DNA from: a virus | Strand: one strand, 5' to 3' | DNA: 21,388 bases | IMG/VR virus record: IMGVR_UViG_3300012013_000224 | Coordinates: 1-21,388 of that record | Part shown: positions 3,465-14,554 of the stretch, in pieces | How the letters are laid out: every line of letters starts with the position of its first letter | How positions within the stretch are numbered: position 1 is the stretch's first letter | Notes under the pieces: model-generated | The model's database searches: none | Told to the model about the DNA's origin: nothing | Seen by the model: the letters and a program-made list of their open reading frames with translations, nothing else | Made by a program: the position numbers and the translations under genes

Positions 3465-3758
3465 TTATCCAGAAATTATTTTTTCGTAGACGTGATAGCA
3501 CTGCAAATGGGCCTGAGCCCACTGTGATCCGTGAGCGTGGGTTTCTTCCCACTCAAGGAACGAGATCGCGTGTGCGAACTCATGCACCAGCGTATCGAGC
3601 TGGACCTGCTCGTTCTTCTTGGCGTTGATGCGAATCAAGAAGTGATCTGATTTGCGACGACAATCTCCGCACAACGAATCAGGCAGACTCAATCTGCGCA
3701 CCGAAACGCAGATTGTTGGATTCGACTTTTTCAGGGCATCTCGCAATGCCTGAAACAT
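3465..3758 (-). CDS. SprT-like zinc metalloprotease (97 aa)
   Basis: The motif LDTLVHEFAHAISF supplies HExxH (H59, E60, H63), and THAHGSQW places a third ligand at H76, the SprT/Spartan pattern in which HG...(W/F) follows the HExxH helix by about 10-15 residues. Two Cys-x2-Cys-like residues (C30, C33) lie upstream; the C-terminal zinc-ribbon of longer SprT proteins is absent, making this a minimal catalytic domain. SprT/Spartan enzymes degrade proteins crosslinked to DNA; a phage role in freeing DNA or cleaving a host protein is inference. ATG at 3758 overlaps the TGA of the preceding gene (TGATG), and a GTG codon directly before it is an alternative start. Confidence 0.85.
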   Translation of the reverse strand: MFQALRDALKKSNPTICVSVRRLSLPDSLCGDCRRKSDHFLIRINAKKNEQVQLDTLVHEFAHAISFLEWEETHAHGSQWAQAHLQCYHVYEKIISG

Positions 3759-4624
3759 CACTTAGCACGCCTCGTCTCGTAGTAAAGGACTCTCCTTGCC
3801 CCGTCCCACTTGAAACTTAGCCAGTGCGATCCTAGGGCCTTAGGGCCGAGCATTTTTTCAACTTCCCAACCGCCATGGCCGTCACCCCATGCGTCTTTGT
3901 AGCCGGGTGGGCGGATGTGCAGTTGCTCATCGTGATAAACCACGCCTTTGGAGCTGATACGTTGCCGAGGAATGGTTAGGGACCATTCGTCATGCGTGTG
4001 TCCAGTCACAACAATGTCAGCGTCTGGCGTGAATACCGCAATCCGGTTGGTTTGAATTGTGCCTCTAGTCACCGGCCCACCACCACCAGTCCCATGGTAG
4101 TGATACAAGATTATGCTTTTCTGGATTGTCTTAGCTAGGTTAAAACGAAAGATCACCCAGCCACCGTAGCCACTCGCCTCTACCTTGGATCCGTATTGTC
4201 TCATCCTCGCTGCAAGTCGATCTGTCAGATCAGTTTCGTGCCTGTTGGTTATCGCGGTCTCATGGTTGCCTTTGCCTAGGACCGCAAACTGATCCTTGTA
4301 GGGTTCGTAAAACTGTGCAGCGGTTTCGACGAGAAGATCGAAGTAGTTGTTGCCGCGATGCTCTGGCCGAAGCGAGTTTTTATCGGCTCGTTTGTCCCAT
4401 TTGCCCTGCATTGCGCAGTGCAAATCGCCATTGTCGATAATGATTGCGTTCGTCTCTTTGGCTTGATCGAGGTGCTTCTTTTCTAGCCTCTGGTCGCATT
4501 TTGGATTGTCGTGATGCACGTCGGATCGAAGCAAAACATCCTGACTCCATTGGTTGTTCTTCTTCATGTCAACGATTATTTCGATGACATTAGTGTCCAG
4601 CTTTTTGATCTTCCACTGACCCAT
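3758..4624 (-). CDS. Calcineurin-like metallophosphoesterase
   Basis: All five metal-binding blocks of the family are visible in 288 aa: SDVHHD (D35, H37), DNGDLH (D67), GKGNHE (N120, H121), YHYHGTGG (about 175-178) and VVTGHTHDEW (G208 to H211). The enzyme should be a di-metal phosphodiesterase or phosphatase; substrate unknown. Phages carry several such enzymes, some acting on nucleic acid ends or cyclic nucleotides, but neither is indicated here. The ATG at 4624 has AAAGGA with an 8-nt spacer and lies 35 bp inside the end of the HNAVN/glycosyltransferase gene, so expression is linked to it. The C-terminus (about 215-288) carries HIRPPGYKDAWGDGHGGWE, typical of longer phage and bacterial members. 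Confidence 0.88.
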   Translation of the reverse strand: MGQWKIKKLDTNVIEIIVDMKKNNQWSQDVLLRSDVHHDNPKCDQRLEKKHLDQAKETNAIIIDNGDLHCAMQGKWDKRADKNSLRPEHRGNNYFDLLVETAAQFYEPYKDQFAVLGKGNHETAITNRHETDLTDRLAARMRQYGSKVEASGYGGWVIFRFNLAKTIQKSIILYHYHGTGGGGPVTRGTIQTNRIAVFTPDADIVVTGHTHDEWSLTIPRQRISSKGVVYHDEQLHIRPPGYKDAWGDGHGGWEVEKMLGPKALGSHWLSFKWDGARRVLYYETRRAK

Positions 4625-5633
4625 TACAGAAATCCTTTATGATAGATCTTGCGGTCTGAAGCTTTGTTTTGCAAGTCGCTAGGTGGATGATGTGTGCGTC
4701 GTCAATTCCGTCCCAGAAGTTCCTGAAATAAAACTGCCAGTTGAATCGCGAGTCGAGCAGCTCGTAGCCGTACTTGATCGCCTGCTGTTCGACGACGATC
4801 TGCTCGGCACAGTGGCTCGTCAGAATGTTTTCTGGCGGTTCGGTCCAAACAGACGATGCCGATTTTCGCGTGTAGACAACGCCAGAGTTTAGGCAGGTGT
4901 CGCTGTTGTCGTACTCAATTCCAATCGCTGTGCAAACTTGCTTTCGTTCGGATCGCAGCCAATCGAGGCTCTGGAGGTACGGTGCATCGTCATGGATCAT
5001 GAGATCGCAATCTTGGCCGAAAAGCGATGGACAGGACTCCCTGATGATGCAGTCGGCATCGGCAAAAAGCACTTCCTCGTATTGCTCGACAAAATGCCGC
5101 GTGCGGAACTTTTCAAGTCCCCACCAGGATTTCGTAGCGTTCGTGAGTGCGATGTAATCCGCTCGGCAGCGGTCAGCGTAGGCCTTGATCGTTGGTCCGG
5201 TGATCTCAAGAAGATCGAGATATTCGCGACCAGTGGCGACAGTGACGACAGCCTTGGTTTTAGCGGACCAAGGTCTAACGTTTCGCCAGAGTGTGAGTGC
5301 CTCGCCGAGCGTCAGTTCAGCCTTGCCAAGCTTTCGATTAACTGCGTTGTGAATGCGTACCGTCCAATGGAAGAACGCCATTGGACTGGCAAAATCTGGC
5401 GGGTCAATGGCTTTTAGTTGTGAGTATCCTTCGCGACATTTGCACGAAAAATCTGGAATGCTCACCTCCCACCGACGCAACGCTCTTTCCGAGGGATCGG
5501 TGATTTTATGTAGCTCATTCCATGCGTTCTTGATTTCGGTTATTGTGTGCGTGACTGTCCTAGTTCTCGACAAAATATCAATTCTGCCAAATCCTCGTGC
5601 GATATCGTCTAGTGTTTGCTGTCGCCAGTCCAT
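4590..5633 (-). CDS. Fusion protein: Erv/Alr-like HNAVN helical domain plus GT-A glycosyltransferase
   Basis: Residues about 45-117 resemble the Erv1/ALR thiol-oxidase helical bundle: C64-K-C66, then PP (78-79), SPMAFFHWTVRIHNAVNRKL (83-102), GK and a Trp at 116. The cysteines-to-HNxVN distance (about 29 residues) and the W-x4-HNxVN-x2-LGK sequence fit that family, where the His/Asn helix holds FAD. The cysteine pair is CxC, not the usual CxxC, so oxidase activity is uncertain. Residues about 126-330 look like a nucleotide-sugar transferase: a first strand KAVVTVATG, WWGLEKFRTR, the DxD motif FADAD (192-194), LNSGVVY and a late EQIVVEQQ segment, close to GT8-like enzymes. The ATG abuts the TAA of the Cys-rich gene with no clear ribosome site, suggesting coupled translation. 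Both domain calls come from motifs only. Confidence 0.65.
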   Translation of the reverse strand: MDWRQQTLDDIARGFGRIDILSRTRTVTHTITEIKNAWNELHKITDPSERALRRWEVSIPDFSCKCREGYSQLKAIDPPDFASPMAFFHWTVRIHNAVNRKLGKAELTLGEALTLWRNVRPWSAKTKAVVTVATGREYLDLLEITGPTIKAYADRCRADYIALTNATKSWWGLEKFRTRHFVEQYEEVLFADADCIIRESCPSLFGQDCDLMIHDDAPYLQSLDWLRSERKQVCTAIGIEYDNSDTCLNSGVVYTRKSASSVWTEPPENILTSHCAEQIVVEQQAIKYGYELLDSRFNWQFYFRNFWDGIDDAHIIHLATCKTKLQTARSIIKDFCNGSVEDQKAGH

Positions 5634-6866
5634 TTATGTATTCAACGTAAGAGTTACTGTTGGCACGGTAATGCAAATCGATTCGTCGTAGTTCGTAATG
5701 GTTTTGTCGCAAATCAAGCTGTCAACTGTTTGCAGGCACAGTGCATCCAAATCTAGGTCTGGGCATGGAAATTGTGTTGTTGGACCTCCGCCGATTGGAA
5801 CGATATCACACAGAGTCACAACGTCAGGATCGTTGCCGCAGTTTATAGAGCAATCATTTTGCGTGACGATGGCGTTGCAATCACAATTGTCTAAAAGGTT
5901 TGTGTAGTATCCTGTCGATGCAGGAGCATCTGGAGGTTGTATGGTTTGCCCAGTTGCGTTGGCGTTTCCCTGGCACAAAAGAGTAGAATCCGTAACTTCT
6001 CTACAATTAGAAAATGTACGGACAGCGTAATCGAGACTTTCGTAGTCAACGATTTGGTAGCACGTGCTGACATTGTCTGCGAAATTCTGTCCCCAATCCA
6101 AGCAAAACGATGTCGCTGCTGCACACTTCGCAGATTCAACGGTGCATCCATCTGGCCCAGTGTCTGCATTGGTAATTGAAATGCTTCCAGTTGGTTTTGC
6201 GTCAAAAGTCTTGAACCTTTGCAAAACCACTGAGTAGCTTCTACTAACGGCAGGCTCGGTGTCGACAGCTGCCGTGCAAGTGTCAGAACCAGGATTGATG
6301 GTGTCGCTGTACGTAGTGGTCACAGAACAAGAACCGGAACGGTAAAGCCCAGTGCATGTGGTGTTTACCGCAAGCTCTGGAGTTGCGACATCTGAAAGGA
6401 TTATTCCATCAAGAACATCGTAATAGTAAAGCACTGTCACGACCCATTTACAAACAGGATCTGATTCGCCGCACTTAATGCTCTCCTTGGATATTTTGAC
6501 GCCTATTCCTGTCAGGGTGTAGCGTGCGTAATAATAGTACCGAATCGTCTGCGTGACGTCGCATTCGATTTGCTGTGCTGGAACGCAATCGCAGCTTGAT
6601 CCGTTGTAGGACGCTTTTGCATAGTACTTAGTAAGGTCGTAAGAAATAGACCAAACGCCTTTTGCCCAGAGTTTGCATTGATAGGACGGACTTTGGCAAC
6701 CGACGTCAAATGTTCCAACAAGGCAGCAGTTGGATTTAGTCAACGATATTGAGGTGTCGCCTGGCGTGTAGCAAGTTTGCGTTGGCGATGTCAAATTTAC
6801 TGTGGTGTACTCGGACTCTTCAAGTCCGCCGCATGGTGTGCATCCACAACAACACTTGAATGGCAT
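5634..6866 (-). CDS. Cysteine-rich putative structural/tail protein (410 aa, 33 Cys)
   Basis: The protein opens MPFKCCCGCTPCGG and has 33 cysteines spread through its length, many as CxC or CC pairs (NCC, CDC, NCDC), together with abundant Thr, Ser, Asp and Tyr and few Lys. There is no signal peptide and no transmembrane segment. The composition suggests a beta-rich, disulfide- or metal-stabilised extracellular particle protein. Its position after the tape measure and two further tail-region genes is where distal tail and receptor-binding proteins lie. It has a strong ribosome site (GGAGG, 8-nt spacer) immediately after the previous stop. I do not recognise a family; alternative readings are a virion-attached adhesin or a decoration. 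The neighbouring HNAVN-domain protein is a candidate oxidase or modifier for it. Confidence 0.7.
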   Translation of the reverse strand: MPFKCCCGCTPCGGLEESEYTTVNLTSPTQTCYTPGDTSISLTKSNCCLVGTFDVGCQSPSYQCKLWAKGVWSISYDLTKYYAKASYNGSSCDCVPAQQIECDVTQTIRYYYYARYTLTGIGVKISKESIKCGESDPVCKWVVTVLYYYDVLDGIILSDVATPELAVNTTCTGLYRSGSCSVTTTYSDTINPGSDTCTAAVDTEPAVSRSYSVVLQRFKTFDAKPTGSISITNADTGPDGCTVESAKCAAATSFCLDWGQNFADNVSTCYQIVDYESLDYAVRTFSNCREVTDSTLLCQGNANATGQTIQPPDAPASTGYYTNLLDNCDCNAIVTQNDCSINCGNDPDVVTLCDIVPIGGGPTTQFPCPDLDLDALCLQTVDSLICDKTITNYDESICITVPTVTLTLNT

Positions 6867-13793: not shown

Positions 13794-13902
13794 AACATTC
13801 ACCAATGCCTGCCCGTATCAAATAGTCAGCAACACCAGGAGTGACATCAACAACTGATGCCGTCTCCTTGCGGTGCCACATCTTCAAAAGTCGTATCAAC
13901 AT
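13687..13902 (-). CDS. Possible small overlapping phage protein (71 aa)
   Basis: The frame overlaps the glycosyltransferase end by 56 bp and the adaptor start by about 107 bp. Only the roughly 50 bp between those genes is free, and there it encodes a recognisable block, VVDVTPGVADYLIRAGIGEC, which resembles the 'v~~~~A~~LI~~G~A~~v' core of small phage head-region proteins. The rest is basic and low in complexity (RGKKTSRDRNQRYG). The ribosome site is weak. It is a real candidate but could be a chance ORF. Confidence 0.4.
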   Translation of the reverse strand: MLIRLLKMWHRKETASVVDVTPGVADYLIRAGIGECYDENPSRTSNGADSGTVEPVRGKKTSRDRNQRYGA

Positions 13903-14554
13903 CGTGTTCAATCCATTCCTTCGGGTACATATGGACAGGCTCGTAGTTTTCGTTGTAAATCGTCACCATCTCCTCGACATGACCAAGTCGACAATCTGGA
14001 TCGATGAACACGCTGTTACCTGCCTTTTGCCACTGTAACCAAAACCAAACATCGGAGTCGATTTTAGCGTCTCCCCATTGTCCCTTTTCGTCAGGCTGAC
14101 AGAAAAACCATGGCTTCTGGACTTGCTCAAGTTTCCTTGAGTTTATCACCGTTAGCCCGAAGTGCGCCGTGTCCACCTTGACCGGATAGCCAGACCATTT
14201 GCAGGTCGTCGCATCCGCACCAAGGATTGCACCTAACATTGCTTTCTTGCCCCTGCGAATTTGCATTCCTGCTAAAGCATCCATGTCTTCTTGGACAATG
14301 ATGTTTAGCAATCGTTGCAATTGACTTGGCTTAAAGCATGTGTCGCCATCGATGGTGATTAGGTAGTCCGTTTCTGCAACGGAACTTTCCATCATCATCT
14401 GCATGCACTGACCGTAATATACGCCGAGAGAAATCTCGAACGTAATTTTCATGTGCTTCAGCACTGCTTCAATTTGATTTCTACACCAAGTATTTTCATA
14501 CCTAGGTGCCGTCATCAACGCCTTGACCTTAATTTGCTTACTTTCCTTAACCAT
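13847..14554 (-). CDS. GT-A family glycosyltransferase within the head module
   Basis: The 235-aa protein has the layout of family-2-like transferases: KVKALMTAPRYENTW (first strand), NQIEAVLKHM, the nucleotide/metal motif TDYLITIDGDTCF (D69-G-D71), LAGMQIRRGKKAML, and DSDVWFWLQWQKAGNSVFID followed by CRLGH. The last block is the place of the acceptor or metal-binding His. No membrane segment, so it acts in the cytoplasm on protein, DNA or a soluble acceptor. A strong ribosome site (GGAGGA) precedes the ATG. It lies directly between the capsid-side genes and connector genes, suggesting virion protein glycosylation, which is inference. Confidence 0.78.
   Translation of the reverse strand: MVKESKQIKVKALMTAPRYENTWCRNQIEAVLKHMKITFEISLGVYYGQCMQMMMESSVAETDYLITIDGDTCFKPSQLQRLLNIIVQEDMDALAGMQIRRGKKAMLGAILGADATTCKWSGYPVKVDTAHFGLTVINSRKLEQVQKPWFFCQPDEKGQWGDAKIDSDVWFWLQWQKAGNSVFIDPDCRLGHVEEMVTIYNENYEPVHMYPKEWIEHDVDTTFEDVAPQGDGISC

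Follow-up and report, generated by a model that had tools for sequence, protein, structure and literature searches.

A CxC variant of the Erv/ALR fold joined to a predicted GT-A glycosyltransferase in a tailed phage and encoded beside a cysteine-rich protein

Introduction

Sulfhydryl oxidases of the Erv1/ALR family (Pfam PF04777), which include pB119L of ASFV, E10R of poxviruses and R596 of mimivirus, have in common a helical bundle with an HNxVN helix. Erv-type enzymes acting on virion proteins are known from large eukaryotic DNA viruses and baculoviruses (PMC11654684, PMC10598087), and both of these papers treat the Erv oxidase as a trait of eukaryotic viruses. A literature search for phage sulfhydryl oxidases found no relevant case. 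Among viral glycosyltransferases, the PBCV-1 enzyme (2p73/2p6w) has been described as glycosylating the major capsid protein, and it shares the GT-A fold and a DxD motif with GT8 enzymes such as glycogenin and LgtC. In tailed phages, a variable tail gene can be exchanged together with part of the helper gene located directly downstream, as is the case for the Tfa-like tail-fibre assembly chaperones.

In this study, we analyzed a stretch of 21,388 bases (the window), which corresponds to positions 1 to 21,388 of the metagenomic phage record IMGVR_UViG_3300012013_000224 of IMG/VR. The window contains terminase, portal, capsid, and tape measure genes and is a fragment of a tailed phage. One of its genes encodes an Erv/ALR-like domain followed by a predicted glycosyltransferase domain.

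Results

The two-domain protein (Erv-GT protein; 347 amino acids from ATG to stop) is encoded at 4590-5633 on the minus strand, and its AlphaFold2 model had a pLDDT of 84.7 and a pTM of 0.82. Genes were called as plain ORFs, and some of the start codons are uncertain. The 3' end of the Erv-GT gene is overlapped by a calcineurin-like phosphoesterase gene (3758-4624), which is in turn adjoined by an ORF for a SprT-like metallopeptidase (3465-3761, minus strand; PF10263 above cut-off).

The initial annotation of this ORF had claimed that C-K-C, HNAVN, and a Trp residue reproduce the spacing of the Erv1/ALR oxidases. All of these residues were present: the C64-K65-C66 pair (5436-5444, minus strand), the HNAVN motif of residues 95-99 (5337-5351, minus strand), which belongs to Erv helix 4, and W116, along with K101-L-G-K104. 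PF04777 (Evr1_Alr) matched the Erv-GT protein with an E value of 5.8e-7 and 30.2 bits (cut-off, 27.6), and its scores in relatives reached 48.6 bits, a value obtained for locus L141 over positions 3-90 of the 93 in the model. Rat ALR was found by single-sequence phmmer (E value, 1.2e-4), ALR being the best solved structure by sequence, and a profile built from 39 domain sequences retrieved ALR with an E value of 2.3e-9. In addition, the profile of the two-domain family aligned with ALR from helix 1 through the last helix. The 28 residues between C66 and H95 equal the spacing in ALR; therefore, the register of the flavin-proximal cysteine is kept, and CxC corresponds to a CxxC minus one residue. 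W38xxLH matched Erv helix 1, so the domain, which was assigned to about residues 36-121 (5271-5528, minus strand), begins earlier than the initial annotation had placed it.

Structure searches with the whole model were dominated by transferase matches; therefore, the Erv domain was modeled by itself for the search. It was predicted as five helices with a pLDDT of 88, and the predicted fold was a four-helix bundle plus a short fifth helix, as in the FAD-binding Erv proteins. The best matches were ASFV pB119L (3gwl; Z 10.5, 2.5 Å over 86 residues) and rat ALR (1oqc; Z 10.3, 2.8 Å over 93 residues). All solved structures matching at a Z of at least 4.6 were Erv, ALR, or QSOX proteins, and the next match, at a Z of 4.1, was unrelated. 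Z values of a helical domain are not decisive alone, and those of the predicted domain agree with the sequence evidence. The initial annotation had staked its claim on such a comparison of the N-terminus with Erv1/ALR, and the Erv helical bundle was found in the prediction.

W38, C64, C66, H95, N96, V98, K101, and W116 never varied in the 20 two-domain rows of an alignment, which were fetched by similarity without use of the CxC DNA pattern described below. Because the 80 loci found with that pattern were selected by their CxC and HNxVN letters, only the similarity-fetched set was taken as evidence of conservation; in this set, both cysteines of CxC were invariant down to about 30% identity. 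CxC in place of the flavin-proximal CxxC was found in the window protein and in all its two-domain relatives. Thirteen FAD-contact residues have been listed for yeast Erv1 (PMC4721541), and six of them (W95, C133, H162, V165, K171, and W183) have an identical residue by spacing in the window protein. G91, C159, R182, and others have no identical residue there, and R182 is important for FAD binding in Erv1. The C-terminal CX16C structural disulfide of Erv1/ALR is absent from the window protein, which has R92 and T109 at those positions, and the GRxxW motif of helix 1 is absent from it and present in many relatives. Because it lacks the CxxC and its chemistry is predicted, the protein was not classified as a sulfhydryl oxidase; we regard the domain as a branch of the Erv fold that carries CxC and probably works like such an oxidase.

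As for the C-terminal part, the initial annotation had read a DxD glycosyltransferase core in it and had pointed to the GT8 and GT-A folds. The D192-A193-D194 motif (5052-5060, minus strand) was present, with D192 and D194 invariant in 21 of 21 sequences. The predicted structure of residues 123-335 (4629-5267, minus strand) matched the PBCV-1 glycosyltransferase 2p73 with a Z of 17.4 and 2.9 Å over 181 residues, followed by glycogenin and GT8 enzymes with Z of about 15. On the other hand, Pfam GT8 (PF01501) did not match the window protein, and in the relatives it scored at most 13.8 bits (cut-off, 24.3). Because Pfam GT8 remained below its cut-off, the transferase was assigned to the GT-A fold only and not to GT8; this assignment rests on the modeled fold and the DxD motif. 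Another phage encodes a similar transferase of 228 amino acids in its tail region (L053, 5019-5705); this protein stands alone and has no Erv domain. The window also contains a second glycosyltransferase-like ORF (13847-14554, minus strand), which is GT2-like with PF00535 below its cut-off and belongs to the head and packaging part, away from the tail genes.

Similarity scans of IMG/VR detected homologues with 43-92% identity in further phages, in which the HNxVN motif and the transferase likewise occur in one protein. The presence of both domains in a single phage ORF is thus conserved beyond the window. The observation made in the initial annotation was confirmed, and its interpretation was partly supported.

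The distribution of the domain was examined with a DNA pattern coding for CxC, 28 residues, and HNxVNxxLGK. This pattern was found at 119 places at least in IMG/VR, whereas the same pattern with one extra base was found at none. A chance motif was rejected on the basis of this control and of the Pfam, phmmer, and profile matches. A real ORF was present at all 80 readable loci. Near-duplicates were common among them (31 domain variants were left at 85% identity), and the loci, which come from metagenomic phages, are not fully independent. Stand-alone proteins, mostly of 117-222 amino acids with the Erv domain near the C-terminus, accounted for about 70 of the 80. The other 10 were C-terminal fusions, seven of them to a transferase of the window type and three to a different domain (L102, 6976-8166; L123, 7759-8949; L118, 4081-5007). 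The last domain resembled another transferase but matched none of the solved structures by sequence, and it was left unnamed. The Erv-GT fusion is a minority form; in most cases the phages encode the CxC domain as a protein of its own. At their N-termini, L102 and another fused CxC-Erv protein, L078 (10368-11483), have a cysteine motif resembling a zinc ribbon or rubredoxin. Phage Erv proteins with the canonical CxxC were rarer than the CxC type, being found in 14 stretches in the same kind of scan (L191-L204; the contig of L203 is possibly not from a phage). No cellular relatives were found in a similarity search of genome contigs, INPHARED phages and PLSDB plasmids gave no convincing relative of the Erv domain, and searches of PHROGs and NCBIfam gave the Erv-like proteins no functional assignment.

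The gene directly upstream of the Erv-GT gene (5634-6866, minus strand) encodes a protein of 410 amino acids with 33 Cys residues and ends with a stop codon immediately next to the Erv-GT start codon. No known family was found for this protein, which is a probable tail protein as judged from gene position only. In 74 of the 80 CxC loci, the gene directly upstream codes for a protein with 5% Cys or more. Four of the six exceptions were contig ends, and the remaining two (L124 and L141) had less Cys-rich ORFs nearby. In comparison, the median Cys content of the ORFs of at least 200 amino acids in the CxC loci (n = 441) was 1.4%, and 73 of the 441 reached 5%. In the reverse search, which started from the Cys-rich protein, an Erv-like ORF was next in 15 of 15 loci with an intact 3' flank, five other Cys-rich loci being truncated. 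The linkage of the two genes is thus strict. When four Cys-rich proteins were aligned, about 58 columns were invariant, and 25 of these were cysteines. Furthermore, the canonical CxxC phage Erv proteins were mostly located downstream of a Cys-rich gene, too. The products of these genes, such as those of L193 (315 amino acids with 38 Cys) and L191 (349 amino acids with 21 Cys), look unrelated in sequence. The Cys-rich neighbour, and not the fusion, is the unifying feature of the CxC module. The CxC-Erv proteins of L124 (1852-2217) and L141 (4760-5137) are stand-alone and nearest to canonical Erv, and the Cys-rich neighbours of the fused proteins of L102, L123, L118, and L078 look like a different family.

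In a blastn comparison with L002, the identity of the window DNA was 87.6% as far as the start codon of the Cys-rich gene and 94.0% from the PPDF codons onward; between these points, over the Cys-rich gene and the initial half of the Erv domain, no similarity was detected. The exchanged cassette (5403-6863, minus strand) comprises the whole Cys-rich gene and the CxC half of the Erv domain. The proteins of the window and L002 shared 26% identity in the Cys-rich protein and 33% in the CxC half, compared with 92% in both the HNxVN half and the transferase. In the comparisons with L003, L005, and L010, similarity resumed at the CxC codons, near position 5444. In 55 loci with stand-alone proteins, the CxC half tracked the Cys-rich protein with a partial Mantel r of 0.40 (p = 0.0005), and the corresponding values of the HNxVN half were 0.14 and p = 0.018. 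The link is not absolute, as seen in L011 and L012, whose neighbours share 28% identity and whose CxC halves share 91%. The active-site half tends to travel with the Cys-rich neighbour; conserved DNA is where recombination edges would fall anyway.

Discussion

We propose, on evidence that we judge to be about evenly balanced, that the N-terminal domain is a CxC Erv-fold module handling the disulfides of the Cys-rich probable tail protein, and that it is fused here to a transferase. The module would act on the product of the gene immediately before it, making or shuffling disulfides in the host cytoplasm as virions assemble; E10R of poxviruses and P33 of baculoviruses serve their own virions in a similar way. 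The GT-A transferase would probably glycosylate the same or a neighbouring tail protein in the same assembly step. We infer that the Erv-like domain binds FAD and is redox-active, and likewise its substrate, the location of that substrate in the tail, and the donor and acceptor of the sugar. A role in making or handling disulfides best explains the Erv-type domain with its invariant Cys pair, the linkage to a protein with conserved cysteines, and the partial co-exchange with it, and the position of the CxxC phage Erv proteins behind Cys-rich genes also argues for it. The role of the transferase is suggested by the GT-A fold, the invariant DxD, and the closest match being a viral capsid glycosyltransferase. 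Against the disulfide role stand the alteration of the defining CxxC to CxC, the lack of counterparts of Erv1 R182 and G91 and of the CX16C disulfide in the window protein, and the fact that the bacterial cytoplasm is normally reducing. The assignment of the neighbour to the tail by position and the mismatch of L011 and L012 also count against it. Linkage and co-exchange are association, not catalysis.

Chief among the rivals is a chaperone or docking domain for assembly that has no redox function. The Erv fold would have lost catalysis and would serve, like the tail-fibre assembly chaperones, as a cognate adaptor for the Cys-rich protein; in the fusion, it would bring the transferase to its acceptor. 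The change of CxxC to CxC would fit such a domain, as would the fact that the window protein lacks some FAD contacts, the partial co-exchange resembles that of cognate fibre-chaperone pairs, and inactivated Erv domains are known in the PsiErv domains of baculovirus and QSOX enzymes (PMC11654684). However, both cysteines remain invariant among distant relatives, canonical CxxC domains occupy the same gene setting, and GRxxW is kept in many CxC relatives; we consider this rival unlikely. The redox-dead scaffold that the initial annotation had offered as one option also became less likely from the invariant cysteines and from the CxxC phage Erv proteins in a like gene setting.

A second rival, which appears improbable, is a flavin-free isomerase- or reductase-like CxC module that would shuffle disulfides formed otherwise, for example after lysis. 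CxC does function as a redox motif elsewhere, as in the CPC of Mia40, and substrates with multiple cysteines need isomerization, but a module without FAD would have no need of W38, H95, V98, and W116, which correspond to residues lining the flavin site of Erv1 and are nevertheless retained. Least probable of all, the two genes might be linked only through the exchange of tail modules, as neighbours in a recombination hot spot whose products do not interact in function, the Cys-rich protein being a metal-binding virion part: the region is such a hot spot with edges naturally at conserved DNA, and CCCDC-type clusters could bind metal, but the linkage holds in both directions and recurs in the CxC and CxxC branches with seemingly unrelated Cys-rich proteins.

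Returning to the disulfide-handling module, the results suggest that a helper which makes disulfides in a virion part is encoded by the phages themselves. A wider and more tentative proposal is that tailed phages may have their own cytoplasmic oxidative folding, in which an Erv flavin oxidase with a CxC active site would fit a highly variable tail protein rich in disulfides, would be exchanged along with it, and would sometimes be fused to a transferase that glycosylates that protein. If true, tailed phages would share the disulfide solution of the eukaryotic viruses, with a changed active site. The predicted protein is small and soluble, and flavin, thiol oxidation, and the disulfides of the partner are directly testable.

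Compared with the Erv1/ALR oxidases, the viral members of which serve virion proteins, the phage domain has the same spacing from the second Cys to HN and the flavin-site tryptophans. It differs from them in its CxC, a shorter helix 1-2 region, and the lack of the CX16C disulfide, and the module is phage-encoded, located beside a Cys-rich gene, and sometimes fused to a transferase. Baculovirus P33 (BSOX) resembles it as a virus-encoded Erv-type oxidase for virion proteins (PMC11654684), whereas P33 combines a canonical active Erv domain with a second, inactive PsiErv domain and has no transferase. The window transferase and PBCV-1 2p73 share about 13% identity and the GT-A fold with DxD, and the former differs from the PBCV-1 and GT8 enzymes in being fused to an Erv domain, in occurring in a tailed phage, and in its Pfam GT8 score below the cut-off. 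The likeness to the Tfa-like chaperones is one of gene arrangement and exchange, and the phage helper described here has an oxidoreductase fold; if our proposal is true, the swapped cassette would be a variable tail protein moving with half of its own folding enzyme.
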